Below, piece after piece: positions 5,821 through 39,826 of a stretch of 39,826 bases of DNA. The position numbers and the translations under genes are program-made. Origin of the DNA: an uncultured Selenomonadales bacterium (GTDB lineage Bacteria > Bacillota > Negativicutes > Selenomonadales > Selenomonadaceae); the NCBI GenBank assembly GCA_947165145.1, contig CAMUZG010000023.1, positions 1-39,826 of the forward strand. The letters are read 5' to 3'. Numbering within the stretch: position 1 is the stretch's first letter; every line of letters starts with the position of its first letter. The notes below the pieces were generated by a model that worked only from the letters and a program-made list of their open reading frames with translations, had not been told where the DNA came from and did no database searches.

Positions 5821-5877
5821 GACCTTTGTATTAAAGGCTATTCATTTCGTATGGACTTGGGACTAGCAATTCAACTT

Positions 5878-5904
5878 CAAATTCCTAATTCCACATTCCT
5901 AATT
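5878..5904. repeat. Heptamer repeat after yitT
   Basis: Units ATTCCTA / ATTCCAC / ATTCCTA in phase, immediately downstream of the yitT stop codon. Same family as the tract at 664-698. Confidence 0.7.
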
Positions 5905-5908
5905 GAAC

Positions 5909-7296: not shown

Positions 7297-7307
7297 GCAG
7301 TTTTATC

Positions 7308-7335
7308 AATTAGGAATTAGGAATTTGGAATTAAA
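7308..7335. repeat. Heptamer repeat after ftsQ
   Basis: Units GGAATTA, GGAATTT, GGAATTA directly follow the ftsQ stop codon (minus strand) and lie between it and the rpmB promoter. Confidence 0.7.
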
Positions 7336-16810: not shown

Positions 16811-16979
16811 CTACTTTTCTTTGCGCGCACAAAGAAAAGTAGCAAAAGAAAGTGCGCCTCGCAGGGGCGGCTCAGTTTTCATGCAGTCAACGTTGCGACT
16901 AACCGTAGTTCGTGGTGCCGTCAAATGAAACATCCTGTTTCAGTTGCCGGCGAGAGGCCGCCATCCATGGCGGCCTCAA
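16811..16979 (+). repeat. Structured repeat, copy A
   Basis: About 169 bp containing three hairpins: ACTTTTCTTTG / CAAAGAAAAGT (16813-16840), GAAACA / TGTTTC (16927-16941) and GAGGCCGCCAT / ATGGCGGCCTC (16954-16977). A second copy lies at 22880-23042 in the opposite orientation. The last hairpin is followed by AATTTTTTTT and could act as a terminator for the upstream plus-strand operon. Confidence 0.85.
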
Positions 16980-16995
16980 TTTTTTTTGCAAAAAT

Positions 16996-19320
16996 TTATT
17001 TGTCTTGAACGAATGTCTCGACGTGCAGATGTTTGCCGTCCGTGCGAAATTTTATCAAGCCGTCGCGGTCAGTGCGGAAAATTTTCGTCGGCAAATTCTC
17101 CAAGCGTTCCAAAACTTCCGCGCGTGGGTGCCCGAAAGTATTTCCGTAGCCGACACAAATCACGGCGCATTTCGGCTTGACGGCACGCAAAAATTCTTCG
17201 CTCGAACTCGTCGCGCTACCGTGGTGAGCAACTTTTAAAACCGTGCTCGAAACGTCAATTCCCGCGCTCAAAATCTGAGCCTCAACGTCCTTGATCAAAT
17301 CGCCCGTGATTAAAAAAGTCACGTCGCCATATCGAATTCTGTAGACGTTGGAAATTTCGTTGCCGCTCCCGACTTTCGGCGCGAACGAAACTTCAACCTG
17401 CACGCCGTCAATCGTGAAGACTTCGCCGGTTTGCGCGACGTGCATTGTCGGTAAAAGTTCCTGTGCAATACCAAAGACCGCCGCATAATCAGCTTTCGAT
17501 TCGCCCGCCGTGATGATTTCGTCGACGGGGAATTTTTTTATTACAGAACCTGTGCCGCCAGCGTGATCCTCGTGAGCATGAGTCAGAAAAATTTTGTCGA
17601 CCGCGCGAATGTTTTCGTGCTTGAGGTAGGGGACGACGACTCGCCCGCCGATGTCAAACATTTTTTCACGAACACCGCCCGCGTCGAAAATCATGCACTT
17701 GCCGTGAGGCGTGACGACGACTGCGCAATCGCCCTGTCCGACATCAACGAAGCTGACTTCAAGTTCACCATTCGGGCGGGAAATGTTTATCGCGAGCAAA
17801 AAAATTATCGGCAACAAAATTATCGGGCGACGCAGAATCAGCGCGACGTAATACAAAAATCCCGCCGTCAAGCCGAGTGTCGGGACTTGTACCGCGCTTA
17901 ACGGCAACTTCGCGAAAATTCGGTTGAGCTCCGCGCCCGTGTCGAATATCATTGCCATAACGACGAAAAAAATTTTTCCCGCGAACGGTGCTATTGCCGC
18001 GATTAATCCGCCGAGCAGTCCGCCGACAATCACGAGCTCAAGCAACGGCATTACGAACGCGTTCGCCAAAACCGAGCTCAACGAAAGTTGGTTGAAGTAC
18101 CACACGATGACGGGCAAGCTTGCCAACTGTGCGCCCAAAGTCATTGACGCCGCTTCCGCAAAAAATTTCGGCAACCGTTCAAGTCGAGTTTTCAAATTCG
18201 GCGACAAATACATCAGCCCCGCCGTCGAGGTGAAACTCAACTGAAAGCTCACGTCGAAAAGCAACAGCGGTTGATAGAACAACATTGCAATCGCCGTCAA
18301 CGTCAAGAGCCGTGCGCCTTCAGCCTCCGCGTCGAGTGTTTTGGCAAAAAAAATCAGCACGCCCATTGACGCTGACCGAACGACTTGCGGAAGGAGCGCG
18401 CTTAAAATTGCGTATGTGCCGATGATTAAAAATCCCAAGATGAATGTTGCGCCTTTCGGGACGTGGCATGATTTGCAGACGGTTGACGTTGCCGCAGATA
18501 ACATTGTCATATGCGAGCCGCTGACCGATAAGATGTGCACAATGCCCGTTGTTTGGAAGTCTTCGACGAGTTCGGGATTAAGTCCCGCGTAACCGCCGAA
18601 GAGCATTGCGAAGAGTGCTGCCGCGTCTTCACGTGCCATGACCTGCGCCATTGATTCGCGATAATGTTTACGAACTGCCGCGATGCCGCGCAGAAATTTT
18701 GTGTAGAAATTGCCGCTGACAGCCTCGACCGTGATACCGTTCTTGCTTGCCGACATTCGCGCGGTAATCCCGTTCGCCTTCATGCGCGTGACGTTGTCGA
18801 TTAGCCCAGGGTTTTTGTAATCGGTCAGCAGTTTGAGGTTGCCGCCCGCAGAAATTTTGTCGCCGATACGAATGGTCGGAAGTGGTTCGTCTTTCGGGTA
18901 GTAAGTCAGAATCAGTCCGCCCGAAATTTTTTTGTCCGTGCCGTTGAGTTTGATTGTTTGCGCGTCGATGACGAATCGCCATTGCGTCATACCGTTCGGC
19001 AAAATTTTTACTTGTGGTTCTTCGCGAACGGTGCCCGAAATGTTGACGGCTTGTCCCGCGAAAAAGCTCACGTCATTAGGCGGCAGATTGTCGACTGCGG
19101 CGAATCGCCACGTGCCGATTGCGAAAAAAAATATCGGCGCGACAATCCACGCTGTCAACTTCCGCCGCCGCCACGTCACAGCAAGCCCGATTATCATTGT
19201 CGCCGCGCAGGTGACGAGAATTAATTTCGGCGAACGATTGACGTGCTCCATGACGAGAATCCCCGCCGCCATTGACGCAAGACAGCCGTTCAGCATTGAA
19301 TCGGAGACTTTAACTTTCAT
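16996..19320 (-). CDS. comEC: ComEC/Rec2 DNA-uptake channel
   Basis: ComEC conducts single-stranded DNA across the inner membrane during transformation. The 774-residue protein has an N-terminal membrane/DUF4131 region (to about 200), the Competence domain with GIVHILSVSGSHMTML and many helices (about 210-500), and a C-terminal metallo-beta-lactamase domain (VSFVDVGQGDCAVV, LTHAHEDHAGG, KVAHHGSATSSS). All three parts look intact, including metal ligands. It starts 6 bp after the Hsp70-like gene stop, with only a weak ribosome-binding site, which suggests coupling to that gene. No comEA is adjacent. Confidence 0.95.
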   Translation of the reverse strand: MKVKVSDSMLNGCLASMAAGILVMEHVNRSPKLILVTCAATMIIGLAVTWRRRKLTAWIVAPIFFFAIGTWRFAAVDNLPPNDVSFFAGQAVNISGTVREEPQVKILPNGMTQWRFVIDAQTIKLNGTDKKISGGLILTYYPKDEPLPTIRIGDKISAGGNLKLLTDYKNPGLIDNVTRMKANGITARMSASKNGITVEAVSGNFYTKFLRGIAAVRKHYRESMAQVMAREDAAALFAMLFGGYAGLNPELVEDFQTTGIVHILSVSGSHMTMLSAATSTVCKSCHVPKGATFILGFLIIGTYAILSALLPQVVRSASMGVLIFFAKTLDAEAEGARLLTLTAIAMLFYQPLLLFDVSFQLSFTSTAGLMYLSPNLKTRLERLPKFFAEAASMTLGAQLASLPVIVWYFNQLSLSSVLANAFVMPLLELVIVGGLLGGLIAAIAPFAGKIFFVVMAMIFDTGAELNRIFAKLPLSAVQVPTLGLTAGFLYYVALILRRPIILLPIIFLLAINISRPNGELEVSFVDVGQGDCAVVVTPHGKCMIFDAGGVREKMFDIGGRVVVPYLKHENIRAVDKIFLTHAHEDHAGGTGSVIKKFPVDEIITAGESKADYAAVFGIAQELLPTMHVAQTGEVFTIDGVQVEVSFAPKVGSGNEISNVYRIRYGDVTFLITGDLIKDVEAQILSAGIDVSSTVLKVAHHGSATSSSEEFLRAVKPKCAVICVGYGNTFGHPRAEVLERLENLPTKIFRTDRDGLIKFRTDGKHLHVETFVQDK

Positions 19321-19326
19321 TGCGCG

Positions 19327-21741
19327 TTAACTCAGTTCAATTTGCTCGGACATGTCCAAGTCGTCGGACAAATCGCTGACACTGGTCGCAATCTGGTACT
19401 CGATAACGTTCGATTTCACGGCGCGGATAAAAACTGTCGCGTTTTCGTCGGGATTGTCAATGTGAATTGTGATACGTTTCGCCTTTTGAATGCTCATCTG
19501 ATTCGAGGCGGCTTCAGGCAAATTCGTGTAGAAAATGTCAAAACTGTCGCCCGCGTCGATGAACGGATACCACACGTCGAATTTGGTTGTGCGGTCGATG
19601 ACGGTCTTGAACTTGCGCTTCTTGTTCCTGCCAACGTAACAACTGAACGGCGTCTTTTCGGGGTCGGGCGTGATGTGTTTGGTCTTGACGAGTCCGCCGG
19701 CTCTGCTCAACAGCAAACCGAACGCGACGCCAGTTTTACCTGTCGGGGCGGTCATGTCGGTACGAATTTCAACGCCGCGAGCCTTTTGAATCGCGTGAGC
19801 AGCTTCTGTGCCGAGTGCAGGATAAATTTTGAATTCGGGGACGTCGGTCACGCCAAAAAGAATTTCCGCTGGAGACTTCTCGCGTTGTCTGTCGACGGGA
19901 ATTTTTTTAACAGTCTCGCTCAAAACGATTTGGTCGCTGTCGTTGTCCATGTCGCCGAGCCAAACTTCCAAGCCTTTGTTGTCGCGCCGATAAATGCTAC
20001 CGCCTTGCATGAAGTAATCGTTTTTGAGCTCGTAGCCGCGTTTGAGCCGTCCGCCGGCAAAAGGATTTTCATCGTCAGCAAGTCGCGTGTCTTCGCCAGG
20101 CGAAAGGTATTCAGCAAAAAGTTCGTTGACAATCGGCGACTTCGACGAATTGCCCGCAAGGAAAATCGACAGCTCCTCAATTTCGTTGAGCGATTTTATC
20201 TTACGCAGAGAATTTTTGCTGTTCTTGTCGAAGGCTTCCTTCATGGAGATGAAAAAGTTGTTGATGCCGACACGAATTCTGTCGCGCAAAATTTTTTGAA
20301 GGTCGATTGTCACGGCGAGCCTGAAATTTTCTACAAGCTGACCGTCGTCGCGGAAAAGATTTATCGTGATTGAGCCGTCCGCAGAAATTTTTTTCGCCGC
20401 CTCGGAATCGGGAGTTTCCCACACGGGACGCAACTTTTCAACCAACGCGTGCATGTTCGAGTGCGCTTCCTGCGAATCTTTTATCAAAGCCTCGGAGCCC
20501 GCGAAACTTTTTTTGTCCGCCGCCCACGTGAATGGAATTTTTCCGCCGCCGTCGACGTGGAGCAACGCATCTTGATTCGATTTGAAGACTTCAAACGCCA
20601 AGAGTTTCAAAAGATTTTCGCCGCCCAAAGTTCGGTCGCCGTTCTCGCCGAAATGAACCAGCACATAATCATAGCGGTCATTCGACGATTCGCGCAGAAA
20701 ACCGAAATCAAAATCTGTCGTGCCGCCGCCGAAATCGAACACCGCGTAATAGATTTCTTCTTCGTCTTCGGGGTCGAAACCGTATTCTTGCAGGGCAGTT
20801 ATCGCATAAGCCGCCGCCTCGCTAGCACCTTCGCGAACGGAAAATTTTTTCATCTCCGCCGCGTTCGACAGCAGTGATGTTGGCAGTGACTTCATCAAGC
20901 CGCGCTCGAAACTCCGCCGCATTTTTTCGCGAATCGGTCGCTCATACGTCACGGGGAACGACAAAATGTAATTCAGGAAGATGTGCCGCTCCTGCTGCAT
21001 GTTGTTTATAAAAAGTCCGAGATAGTACGCGTAAATTTCCAGCGGATTAATTTCGTCTTCAGCAAGCTCAGCGAACGGCGCAAGTTGCGTGATGAATTTT
21101 TTTTCGTCGCGGAGCATGAACTGAACCTTTGAGCCGCACCAATGTTTTAAGTCCGTCAAGAAGGAATAAAATTTTTCGGAGCCGACTTGCGTCATGTTGT
21201 CGAAGGCAGCGTGCGAAATTTTAACGTCGCTCCAACGCGTGAACGGACGACCTTCGCGCCAATAGTACGCCATCAAAAAGCTTTCAATGTCGATGAACTG
21301 AATGACCGTCGGATTTTCGTAGTTCTCGGAAAAATTCAGACCTCTGCGCCAAGAACCGCTACCGACTTGCAACGGAATGATTTGCGAATGTTCGTTCTCG
21401 TAAACGACGACTGTGCGGCTCGTGCCGAAGTCAATCGCGACAATGCCGGTCGACACGTCATCAATCGGATTGCGGGCGACAAAATTTTCGCTGAGCAAAA
21501 TTTCCCTGCCGTTATCCTTGTCGATGTCCCATAAATCCCAGTGCCCGCGGTTCGGGTCGAACAAAATATTTTCGTCGTAAGCGTCGAGACCGGCGCGTTC
21601 GTTGTCGCATTTGAGCAGGTAATCTTTCAGCTGTTCGGTAAATTTCGCGTCGGGAATATCGGGCGTTGCGGAACTGCTACTACCGCCGAAAAATTCCAAG
21701 TCCTCATCGGAAATCCGCACGCTGTTTAAAATCTTCGTCAC
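19327..21741 (-). CDS. Hsp70-like ATPase, divergent, unknown role
   Basis: An 804-residue protein with an actin/Hsp70-type ATPase core: phosphate-1 loop VAIDFGTSRTVVVYENE near residue 102, phosphate-2 YAVFDFGGGTTDFDFGFL near 333, and adenosine motif SIFLAGNSSKSPIVNELF. A roughly 100-residue N-terminal extension and large insertions (aromatic-rich YYWREGRPFTRW; CGSKVQFM) are not found in DnaK, and a canonical substrate domain is not recognisable; the C-terminal part looks beta-rich. The GTG start at 21741 follows GAGAGGAG; a longer frame running across the DUF362 start is rejected. It is co-directional with comEC, 6 bp apart. Function not known. Confidence 0.75.
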   Translation of the reverse strand: MTKILNSVRISDEDLEFFGGSSSSATPDIPDAKFTEQLKDYLLKCDNERAGLDAYDENILFDPNRGHWDLWDIDKDNGREILLSENFVARNPIDDVSTGIVAIDFGTSRTVVVYENEHSQIIPLQVGSGSWRRGLNFSENYENPTVIQFIDIESFLMAYYWREGRPFTRWSDVKISHAAFDNMTQVGSEKFYSFLTDLKHWCGSKVQFMLRDEKKFITQLAPFAELAEDEINPLEIYAYYLGLFINNMQQERHIFLNYILSFPVTYERPIREKMRRSFERGLMKSLPTSLLSNAAEMKKFSVREGASEAAAYAITALQEYGFDPEDEEEIYYAVFDFGGGTTDFDFGFLRESSNDRYDYVLVHFGENGDRTLGGENLLKLLAFEVFKSNQDALLHVDGGGKIPFTWAADKKSFAGSEALIKDSQEAHSNMHALVEKLRPVWETPDSEAAKKISADGSITINLFRDDGQLVENFRLAVTIDLQKILRDRIRVGINNFFISMKEAFDKNSKNSLRKIKSLNEIEELSIFLAGNSSKSPIVNELFAEYLSPGEDTRLADDENPFAGGRLKRGYELKNDYFMQGGSIYRRDNKGLEVWLGDMDNDSDQIVLSETVKKIPVDRQREKSPAEILFGVTDVPEFKIYPALGTEAAHAIQKARGVEIRTDMTAPTGKTGVAFGLLLSRAGGLVKTKHITPDPEKTPFSCYVGRNKKRKFKTVIDRTTKFDVWYPFIDAGDSFDIFYTNLPEAASNQMSIQKAKRITIHIDNPDENATVFIRAVKSNVIEYQIATSVSDLSDDLDMSEQIELS

Positions 21742-21808
21742 AATGTCGACTCCTCTCAAAAAGTTTTTGTCATTATAGCGAACGCGGGCGATTGTGGCAA
21801 AAATTTTC

Positions 21809-21865
21809 TTGACTTGAGCAAACTCCAAGGAATAATATTGACGTAAAAAATCCCCTGCGCGGGGA
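21809..21865 (+). promoter_or_regulatory. Promoter and leader hairpin of the DUF362 gene
   Basis: TTGACT (21809-21814) and TAATAT (21833-21838) are 18 bp apart. The transcript leader carries TCCCC-TGCGC-GGGGA (21851-21865) just before the AGGAGG ribosome-binding site. Confidence 0.55.
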
Positions 21866-21882
21866 TAACAGGAGGAATTTTT

Positions 21883-22815
21883 ATGACTCAAGCACCCGTT
21901 ATCGGCAGCAAAAACGTCACGGGCACGAATTACGTCGGTTCCGCCGCAAAAGTCTACTTCACCAAGACAATCGACGCCGCGCACTTAATCAAGCTTTACA
22001 AACTCGTCAACGAAAATATTTTTGGCAAAATTGCAATCAAACTCCACACGGGCGAAAAACACGGTCCGAACATTTTGCCGCGCGACATGGTTCAAGCTTT
22101 CCAAGCGCAAGTTCCCAACTCGGCAATCGTCGAATGCAACACGCTTTATCACGGCGACCGCTACGACACTCAAGGGCACCGCGAAGCAATCGAAATCAAC
22201 GGTTGGAATTTTTGCGACGTCGACATCATGGATGAGGACGAAAAAACCGTCAATTTCCCCGTGAACAACGGTTTCCATTTGAAAGAAGTTGCAATGGGCG
22301 CAAATCTCGTCAATTACGATTCGCTGATTGTCTTGACGCATTACAAAGGGCACGCAATGGGCGGTTTCGGCGGCTCAATGAAAAATATCGCAATCGGTTG
22401 CGCAAGCGGTCATCTCGGCAAAGCGCAAGTTCACGGCGTCGACCCCGACAACGTTCCCGTATGGACTGAATGGCCTATGAAAGAATATTTCATGGAGCTG
22501 ATGGTTGACAGCGCGAAGGCGACTTGCGACCATTTCGGCAAGCATATAGTCTTCCTGAACGTCATGCGCCGAATCAGCGTTTCGTGCGACTGCGAAGGTG
22601 TTTCCGCCGCTGAACCGACAATGAAAGACATTGGCATTGCAGTTTCAACCGATTTGCTTGCCGTCGACCAAGCGTGCTGTGACATGATTTACTCCGCGAC
22701 TGACAGCCACGACATGAAAGAACGTATCGAAACTCGTCACGGTCTGCGTCAACTCAGCGCAATGGCTGAAAAGGGCATGGGCAATCCGCAATACGAACTG
22801 ATTGAAATCGACTGA
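21883..22815 (+). CDS. DUF362 domain protein
   Basis: A 310-residue DUF362 family protein, related to proteins often described as iron-sulfur or Fe-S assembly associated, of unproven function. It has KIAIKLHTGEKHGPNILPRD, an IVECNTLYHGDR strand, THYKGHAMGGFGGSMKNIA and GCASGHLGKAQVHG, all family hallmarks. It lacks the C-terminal CxxCxxCxxxC ferredoxin domain that many relatives have. It has its own promoter, a strong AGGAGG and a terminator, so is monocistronic, and diverges from the Hsp70-like gene. Confidence 0.88.
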   Translation: MTQAPVIGSKNVTGTNYVGSAAKVYFTKTIDAAHLIKLYKLVNENIFGKIAIKLHTGEKHGPNILPRDMVQAFQAQVPNSAIVECNTLYHGDRYDTQGHREAIEINGWNFCDVDIMDEDEKTVNFPVNNGFHLKEVAMGANLVNYDSLIVLTHYKGHAMGGFGGSMKNIAIGCASGHLGKAQVHGVDPDNVPVWTEWPMKEYFMELMVDSAKATCDHFGKHIVFLNVMRRISVSCDCEGVSAAEPTMKDIGIAVSTDLLAVDQACCDMIYSATDSHDMKERIETRHGLRQLSAMAEKGMGNPQYELIEID

Positions 22816-22833
22816 CCTCAACCCGATAACTTT

Positions 22834-22867
22834 GCAGGAAGTAATAAACGTTGCCTCCTGCTTTTTT
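22834..22867 (+). terminator. Rho-independent terminator of the DUF362 gene
   Basis: GCAGGA pairs with TCCTGC and is followed by TTTTTT, 19 bp after the stop codon. It directly precedes repeat copy B. Confidence 0.8.
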
Positions 22868-22879
22868 GTTGCGGGAATT

Positions 22880-23042
22880 TGAGGCCGTCATGGATGACGG
22901 CCGCCGGCAACACGTCCACGGAAAGGACGTTTTGCCGGAACTACGAGCTACGGGTAGTCTCAACGTTGGAATCATTTGGACTGAACGCCCCTGCGAGGTG
23001 CCTTTTCTTTTGCTACTTTTCTTTGGGCACGCAAAGAAAAGT
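22880..23042 (-). repeat. Structured repeat, copy B (inverted relative to copy A)
   Basis: The minus-strand sequence matches copy A along its length: ACTTTTCTTTG / CAAAGAAAAGT (23015-23042), CCTCGCAGGGGCG, CAACGTTG, a middle hairpin ACGTCC / GGACGT (22912-22930) and GGCCGTCAT / ATGACGGCC (22883-22902). The last stem differs from copy A by a paired C-to-T and G-to-A change that keeps pairing. The 360-bp gap between the DUF362 gene and scrB is filled by a terminator, this repeat and a promoter. Confidence 0.85.
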
Positions 23043-23111
23043 TGATCAATAAGATTGAATTTAGTTTCAAAGTTAAATCGCGCGAATCACGACGACCGCA
23101 AACTCCGCCGC

Positions 23112-24747: not shown

Positions 24748-24775
24748 CCCTTCGGCACACGTCGGAGGGTTTTTT
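24748..24775 (+). terminator. Terminator after scrB
   Basis: CCCTTCGGC-acac-GTCGGAGGG with a GU pair or two, followed by TTTTTT; the A-run on the left also allows use on the minus strand. Confidence 0.85.
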
Positions 24776-24812
24776 CAATTTAGAATTAAGAATTTGGAAT
24801 GTGGAATTAAAT
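24776..24812. repeat. Heptamer repeat after scrB terminator
   Basis: AGAATTA, AGAATTT, GGAATGT, GGAATTA in 7-bp phase, same family as the tracts in the first 10 kb. Confidence 0.7.
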
Positions 24813-39771: not shown

Positions 39772-39826
39772 TGGTCGGGTTGACAGGATTTGAACCTGCG
39801 ACCCCCGCGTCCCGAACACGGTGCTC
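39772..39826 (-). tRNA. tRNA-Pro (CGG), 3' part, cut by window edge
   Basis: The minus-strand sequence contains an anticodon arm CCGTG-TTCGGGA-CGCGG with anticodon CGG, the T arm with GGTTCAAATCC, and a 3' end CCCGACCA with encoded CCA. The acceptor 5' half and D arm lie beyond the window. The anticodon reads proline codon CCG. Confidence 0.93.

Follow-up and report, generated by a model that had tools for sequence, protein, structure and literature searches.

A dispersed intergenic repeat of a Selenomonadales genome with a covarying pseudoknot fold and a stem-matched tract that fits a triple helix

The window analysed here is a stretch of 39,826 nucleotides (nt) from the draft genome of an uncultured Selenomonadales bacterium (contig CAMUZG010000023.1 of GenBank assembly GCA_947165145.1, positions 1 to 39,826). 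It contains two oppositely oriented copies of a short repeat, copy A (16811-16979) and copy B (22880-23042), both found where an initial annotation had placed them. Covariation among the copies of this repeat supports selection for the fold of one strand and shows a stem (P2), a pseudoknot helix (P1) and a third tract that follows the sequence of the stem. Taken as a whole, the observations are best explained, with rather more confidence than doubt, by a non-autonomous, dispersed, intergenic element in which the selected strand would be an RNA with a triple-helix pseudoknot.

Copies A and B share 76% identity across 171-174 nt in a similarity search, and an inverted-repeat search of the window returned a pair of 74 nt at 85%. 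The longest exact block common to both is the 22-nt CAAAGAAAAGTAGCAAAAGAAA (16830-16851 on the plus strand in A and 23004-23025 on the minus strand in B). The genome of the window (G000) is a 1.94-Mb draft estimated to be 82.8% complete; draft genomes also served in the comparisons, and gene calls were made in-house. A search of G000 with copy A revealed at least 33 relatives, giving at least 34 copies. Counting A and B, 31 matches are near-full-length, with identities of 73-100%, and lie on both strands and many contigs; there are also three shorter matches and one further copy from a search with the 22-nt pattern. Allowing up to two mismatches, this pattern occurs at 25 places in the genome, compared with none for the reversed control. 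The analysis used 34 copies, leaving out a 66-nt partial match (G000:C2:111588). The data support a dispersed repeat with no gene of its own that resembles a miniature inverted-repeat transposable element (MITE), much as the initial annotation had suggested in describing it as MITE-like and free of a transposase.

Selection on a folded structure, previously proposed from the two window copies, was supported by a covariation test on an alignment (A1) of 30 of the 34 copies; those omitted were L041 and L042 (partial), L052 (found by the pattern only) and L053 (full-length, but beyond the 30 loci of the similarity search). Over 29 named pairs, 96.9% of the cells are paired. Two-sided (compensatory) change is seen in 14 of these pairs, a level reached in 0 of 500 shuffles, and the covariation score is 0.240; shuffled alignments gave 0.105, none of 500 reaching the observed value, and slid controls did not exceed 0.072. 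The last hairpin is paired in 100% of cells; the base change noted earlier between its two window versions (GGCCGCCAT/ATGGCGGCC in copy A, GGCCGTCAT/ATGACGGCC in copy B) was confirmed, and a third variant was found. The middle hairpin, which had been said to change in sequence while staying a hairpin, indeed has at least three sequence types among the copies and another in L041. These types do not align, and the middle hairpin was therefore excluded from the pair count. A small CTAC/GTAG hairpin is weaker, with 84% of its cells paired.

The first hairpin of the initial annotation is real, but its pseudoknot, its third strand, the spread of the motif across phyla and its likely sense strand had been overlooked. 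The core consists of a pyrimidine/purine stem of 10-14 bp, P2, and a pseudoknot helix of 4-6 bp, P1, which joins the hairpin loop to a nearby segment. Depending on the copy, the loop and the downstream segment read TGCC/GGCA, CGCA/TGCG or TGTC/GACA, and by inspection they are complementary in 34 of 34 G000 copies. In the 30 aligned copies three of the five P1 pairs show two-sided change and 96.0% of the cells are paired. Beyond the genus, the longest complement between loop and segment in 69 strings has a mean length of 3.84, against 2.56 when permuted (0 of 2000 permutations as high). RNAalifold, which cannot draw pseudoknots, placed a small hairpin there instead that would compete with the 5' side of P1. 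As a separate observation, CCTCGCRGGGGCG (16855-16869 and the corresponding positions of the aligned copies) is nearly invariant, and a CGCC/GGUG pairing within it could compete with the pseudoknot; a two-state switch between the two pairings is possible.

The stem is separated from the pseudoknot segment by a purine tract, the linker, that mirrors the purine strand of the stem: a stem with AAAGAAAA is accompanied by the linker AAAAGAAA, and a stem with AAAAGAAA by the linker AAAGAAAA. Stated as a rule, the number of A residues before the G in the linker equals the number after the G in the stem. The rule is kept in all 34 G000 copies, which have five stem types, and in all 77 copies with a recognisable tract in genomes G029, G010, G014-G016, G096 and G092. 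To control for bias, named genomes were searched with a pattern that fixed the stem and left the linker open. This gave 69 distinct strings with a tract, of which 67 obeyed the rule, and both exceptions are from one Rikenellaceae genome (the 69-string and 77-copy sets overlap in G096, G092 and G010/G090). The same linker-free search of viral contigs, judged by eye, yielded seven type-B and nine type-A stems with an intact linker that obey it; the other matches were unrelated stretches or had a broken tract (L220, L206). One Flavobacteriales genome (G119) carries both stem types, each with its own linker. A change of stem type requires coordinated change at three places, and drift or shared ancestry alone is therefore a poor explanation. 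The putative third strand is in this way the one that the stem sequence determines. Such coupling is the signature of a third strand, and the minus strand fits a triple helix of U·A-U and C+·G-C layers.

In the frame of copy A, which is used for the strands of the element throughout, the linker is purine on the plus strand and reads UUUCUUUU on the minus strand, parallel to the purine strand of the stem. A parallel pyrimidine strand is the arrangement classically associated with U·A-U and C+·G-C triples. The minus strand is favoured because it obeys the Hoogsteen code (A to U, G to C). With A-form geometry, a chain that spends one nucleotide on each of eight layers could reach the outer end of a stem of 13-14 bp by bridging the deep groove with a single extra nucleotide, and a crossing of this kind would account for the additional outer pairs of such stems. 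The converse arrangement, in which the plus strand would hold a purine third strand in its minor groove, was considered and is disfavoured on the argument that the linker is too short for 13-14 pairs.

The context of the copies points to the same strand in the window's genus, where the minus strand is codirectional with both neighbouring genes in 48 cases and the plus strand in 15. By genome, the minus-to-plus counts are 22 to 3 in G000, 9 to 4 in G029, 14 to 8 in G010 and 3 to 0 in G014-G016; outside the genus they are 10 to 4 in Gammaproteobacteria. When up to 200 nt from the core was searched, hairpins with a GGA loop were found on the minus strand in 34 of 34 G000 copies, 18 of 18 of G029, 30 of 31 of G010 and 17 of 18 of G096 (99 of 101 copies when pooled), as well as in 28 of 40 gammaproteobacterial copies. 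The corresponding plus-strand counts are 1, 0, 0 and 0, and 3 in Gammaproteobacteria. GGA loops are of the kind bound by the regulator CsrA, whose consensus contains this motif. The csrA gene is present in G000 and in 53 of 60 genomes of the genus; being nearly universal there, it was discarded as a discriminator.

The core is widely distributed. A scan of species genomes, grouped by record titles, found at least 80 loci, and the matches listed include 29 from Burkholderiales, 32 from Gammaproteobacteria (two of them titled only 'proteobacterium'), ten from Selenomonadales, six from Bacteroidota, two from Desulfobacterota and one from Clostridia. Among these matches the core thus occurs in six major groups, and, by eye, the loop and the segment that follows the linker usually change together. 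The exact type-A pattern was found in six of 37 genomes of the window's genus (its own included) and in none of 23 genomes from other genera of the class. In Paraburkholderia the element is about 700 nt long, about 70% self-complementary and near-palindromic, with a core near each end. Six listed Paraburkholderia replicons have at least 40 places each, of which the near-palindrome may give more than one per copy, and one Paraburkholderia genome has about 150 type-A stems. Simple runs (TTTTGC, GGTTTTT) lie at the element margins in L105 and related Paraburkholderia loci. In G096, the copies listed (L341-L357) fall into two sets by their conserved flank outside the core, GGCAACGTGACGTTGCATCC or TATTCACAGCCAATAAAA, which is suggestive of two sub-families.

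For the window copies themselves, 20 comEC and 20 DUF362 loci from other genomes were inspected. Their retrieved flanks did not contain the gene that lies across the repeat (abhydrolase, GH32), so that the sites are not comparable, and nothing there showed an inverted order. The empty-site comparison was therefore made at three other junctions, with gene families assigned by Pfam. The element is present in G000 and absent from 21 of 21 other genus genomes between minC and minD, from 19 of 19 between tilS and hpt, and from 15 of 15 between atpH and atpA (a 16th locus was ended by its contig). At atpH-atpA the repeat replaces most of a small open frame (125 codons in G001 and 129 in G021), the last bases of which remain. 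A small frame of 125-140 codons lies between atpH and atpA in some members of the genus, namely in L382 (G021), L389 (G001), L390 (G013) and L392 (G022). One Paraburkholderia copy is likewise absent from the orthologous site in P. phymatum. As judged by sequence comparison, these empty orthologous sites show lineage-specific insertion. The tilS-hpt copy (L012) is flanked by a direct repeat of 21 nt, identical at 19 of 21 positions and the best of its row among the 34 copies; an imperfect repeat of this length is unusually long for a target duplication. Candidate AACGTTG ends, seen by eye, and a covarying closing stem of the whole element both failed a self-versus-cross flank test and were dropped. 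Copying by a reverse transcriptase, an idea raised by the one long flanking repeat, was also set aside: RVT_1 has a single match in G000 and none in the copy-rich G010 or in G014-G016.

Several observations weigh against an RNA element of the kind proposed. The orientation bias is gone or reversed elsewhere (6 to 6 in Burkholderiales, 4 to 8 in G096). The 200-nt search found no GGA hairpins in 42 of 46 Burkholderiales copies, where the element is longer than that, nor in any of six Bacteroidota and four Clostridia copies. Only one clear flanking direct repeat was found among the 34 copies (overall self score 16.94 versus cross 15.98, with 224 of 5000 permutations as high), and the copies share no terminal inverted repeats (self mean 15.59 versus cross 15.58). 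No transposase-like gene was present in the 25 largest clusters of neighbouring frames (first 70 residues), which are dominated by the element itself, with no genome-wide search for transposase families. Nor was a RAYT (Y1) transposase, the type associated with repetitive extragenic palindromic (REP) sequences, found among the neighbour clusters examined, no search having been aimed at PF01797. In the 30-copy alignment, further pair types showed no excess over the control (19 versus 19.1 shuffled). The pseudoknot is not uniform: the longest loop/segment complement is at most 2 in 14 of the 69 strings, the loops of G099 (three strings) are too short for a pseudoknot, Rikenellaceae G083 retains the tract with little complement, and the loop crossing P1 on the minus strand has just 1-3 nt, which is tight. 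Finally, covariation alone cannot tell RNA from single-stranded DNA.

With these points in mind, the favoured model can be set out as follows. The working molecule is most likely an RNA of the UUUCUUUU strand. Running parallel to the purine strand, the UUUCUUUU tract would occupy the major groove of P2 and form seven to nine layers of U·A-U and one C+·G-C, while the remaining outer stem pairs would let the chain cross the deep groove. The triple-helix pseudoknot would then be at the 3' side of the molecule, with lineage-specific hairpins, mostly GGA-looped in Selenomonadales and Gammaproteobacteria, lying 5' of the core. We infer the transcription of the element, the machinery that moves it and its function. 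The least certain steps are the putative spread of the copies by some machinery, their transcription by read-through together with adjacent genes, and a role as compact RNA caps, resistant to exonucleases, that would make the upstream message more stable and render an insertion tolerable. In hosts that have CsrA, the copies may also bind it.

That the fold is instead selected in single-stranded DNA, with a transposase or recombinase recognising the hairpin or pseudoknot in unwound DNA, is unlikely but the strongest of the alternatives. Y1 HUH transposases recognise hairpins, and the dispersed copies, the lineage-specific insertions, the lack of terminal inverted repeats in the 34 copies, the preservation of the core across phyla while the remainder differs, and the inconsistent orientation to genes outside the window's genus speak for it. 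However, the best-known examples of C+·G-C and U·A-U triples and of compact H-type pseudoknots come from RNA, the orientation bias in the genus (48 versus 15) and the strand specificity of the GGA hairpins speak against it, and none of the 25 largest neighbour clusters is transposase-like. The 21-nt direct repeat at one site is also unlike the product of an HUH insertion.

A cis-regulatory leader, an RNA controlling the downstream gene through, for example, CsrA or a ligand, is less probable again. Triple-helix pseudoknots are known riboswitch folds, as described for SAM-V and guanidine-III. Further, 29 of the 34 copies in G000 precede a gene start when read in the sense direction (by the in-house gene calls), and the GGA loops together with csrA in 53 of 60 genus genomes would suit such a role. 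The downstream genes do not: those scanned (15 of 34) are mostly unrelated housekeeping genes, including Glu/Gln-tRNA synthetase, a phosphoribosyltransferase, a MinD-like protein, enolase, IMP dehydrogenase (IMPDH), SurE, a sigma factor and others, and one of the 15 has no family. This mixture argues against a regulon, and a metabolite regulon or riboswitch gene set was rejected since the 15 scanned genes are not functionally coherent. At three sites the element is missing beside the orthologues in relatives, and there is a promoter-like site between copy B and the next gene (one found, 0.5 expected).

A protein-binding repeat in duplex DNA or a plain palindrome, in which the mirror rule would reflect shared ancestry only, is very unlikely. 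The tract sequence is strongly conserved across phyla (which is partly forced by the search pattern), but there are five stem types in one genome, each with a matching linker, G119 carries both stem types with their own linkers, and the loop co-varies with a distant partner, which a duplex site would not need. The suggestion of the initial annotation that recombination between the oppositely oriented A and B inverts the 6-kb comEC segment can practically be dismissed, given an identity of only 76%, a longest exact block of 22 nt, copies in both orientations all over the genome and no inverted order seen, although the site is not comparable in relatives.

A broader reading of the favoured RNA model is that the repeats belong to an undescribed class of mobile RNA spanning phyla, a selfish intergenic repeat whose most widely shared part would be an H-type pseudoknot with a major-groove triple helix of seven to nine layers, along with hairpins particular to each lineage; this is put forward tentatively, at somewhat less than even confidence. 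The lineage-specific parts would be GGA hairpins of the CsrA type in Selenomonadales and Gammaproteobacteria and the near-palindrome of about 700 nt in Paraburkholderia. On this reading the triple helix would either let the element persist in operons as RNA or be the handle for an enzyme that moves it. No description of the element was found in openly licensed literature by motif strings and keywords. At the gathering score, Rfam 15 has no family at the motif in the window (its only match is the tRNA end), and the search of 19 of the 80 loci from other bacteria returned three matches, none of them at the motif. Known Rfam RNAs in those loci are TwoAYGGAY (L083 7902-7971), RAGATH-18 (L102 2046-2107) and AaHKsRNA22 (L109 4000-4098).

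The element resembles MITE and REP-type repeats in being short, intergenic and lineage-specific, with tens of copies and no gene of its own. It differs from them in that its copies have no terminal inverted repeats in common and only one clear direct repeat at their flanks, and in a base-specific third strand and pseudoknot common across phyla. Triple helices also occur in telomerase RNA and in ENE elements, and in the SAM-V and guanidine-III riboswitches; the present element would share with these RNAs an H-type pseudoknot with the third strand in the major groove. In contrast to them, it is dispersed, the downstream genes scanned share no function, and its tract is longer and uniform, with seven to nine layers and a third strand supported by covariation only. 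TwoAYGGAY (RF01731) has loops like the A-Y-GGA-Y loops on the minus strand and, in a permissive search, matches weakly in two of four loci (E = 0.84 and 2.9). These matches score 27.7 and 25.4 bits against a gathering score of 43 and cover model positions 49-107 of 168 only, that is, the GGA hairpin and not the pseudoknot. The sRNA-Xcc1 family, which we take to be RF02221 in Rfam, has a similarly patchy occurrence in Proteobacteria; the Rfam searches reported no match to it at the motif in the loci that they covered.

Covariation of three strands is seldom available as evidence for a nucleic-acid triple helix, and the motif described here has many natural variants. If real, the repeats would be a common, apparently unnamed class of bacterial intergenic repeat that is recognisable by a rule rather than by sequence, and a ready test set for triple-helix folding in cells; they would also pose the problem of what mobilises or maintains an element of this kind across phyla. 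Through the GGA hairpins, a link between the repeat and CsrA can be tested directly.

In copy A, which lies 3' of comEC and is codirectional with it, the proposed RNA strand is the minus strand of the window. Its long stem (16811-16842) pairs CTACTTTTCTTTG (16811-16823) with CAAAGAAAAGTAG (16830-16842), and its pseudoknot helix (16825-16857) pairs GCGCA in the hairpin loop (16825-16829) with TGCGC (16853-16857). Between them, the third-strand tract (16844-16851, minus strand) is AAAAGAAA on the plus strand and UUUCUUUU on the minus-strand RNA, mirroring the stem purines AAAGAAAA (16831-16838). The middle hairpin (16917-16951, minus strand) has GGA in its apical loop (ACAGGAUGU), and the last hairpin (16954-16977, minus strand) reads GAGGCCGCC ATGGAT GGCGGCCTC, again with a GGA loop. 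On the plus strand this hairpin is followed by a T-run and looks like a terminator. A terminator role was rejected, the T-run behind the last hairpin on the plus strand being present only in A of the two window copies.

Copy B lies 3' of the DUF362 gene and is codirectional with it, and its proposed RNA strand is the plus strand of the window, on which all of its parts are given. The last hairpin (22883-22902) is GGCCGTC ATGGAT GACGGCC, with a GGA loop, and the middle hairpin (22904-22938) is CCGGCAAcACGTCC ACGGAAA GGACGTtTTGCCGG. P1 (22998-23030) pairs GTGCC (22998-23002) with GGCAC (23026-23030). The third-strand tract TTTCTTTT (23004-23011) is a parallel match to the stem purines AAAGAAAA, and P2 (23013-23044) pairs CTACTTTTCTTTG (23013-23025) with CAAAGAAAAGTTG (23032-23044), the outer part having one mismatch.

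Among the genes that the initial annotation placed between the two copies, the one at 19327-21984 bears only a very weak likeness to Hsp70. The 885-residue protein encoded there has no Pfam family at E ≤ 0.001, and NCBIfam DnaK matches it at E = 0.006 over about 60 residues (around 400-458), far under the cut-off. A start resembling this protein (46%) adjoins DUF362 in G010. At the contig end, Rfam identifies a truncated tRNA (39775-39826). The window also carries a second, shorter dispersed repeat (AATTCCTAATTCC / GGAATTAGGAATTA), mostly intergenic, at 648-697, 1978-2013, 5870-5905, 7301-7333 and 24770-24809, and runs resembling it are present in the minC-minD junction of the relatives G015 and G016.

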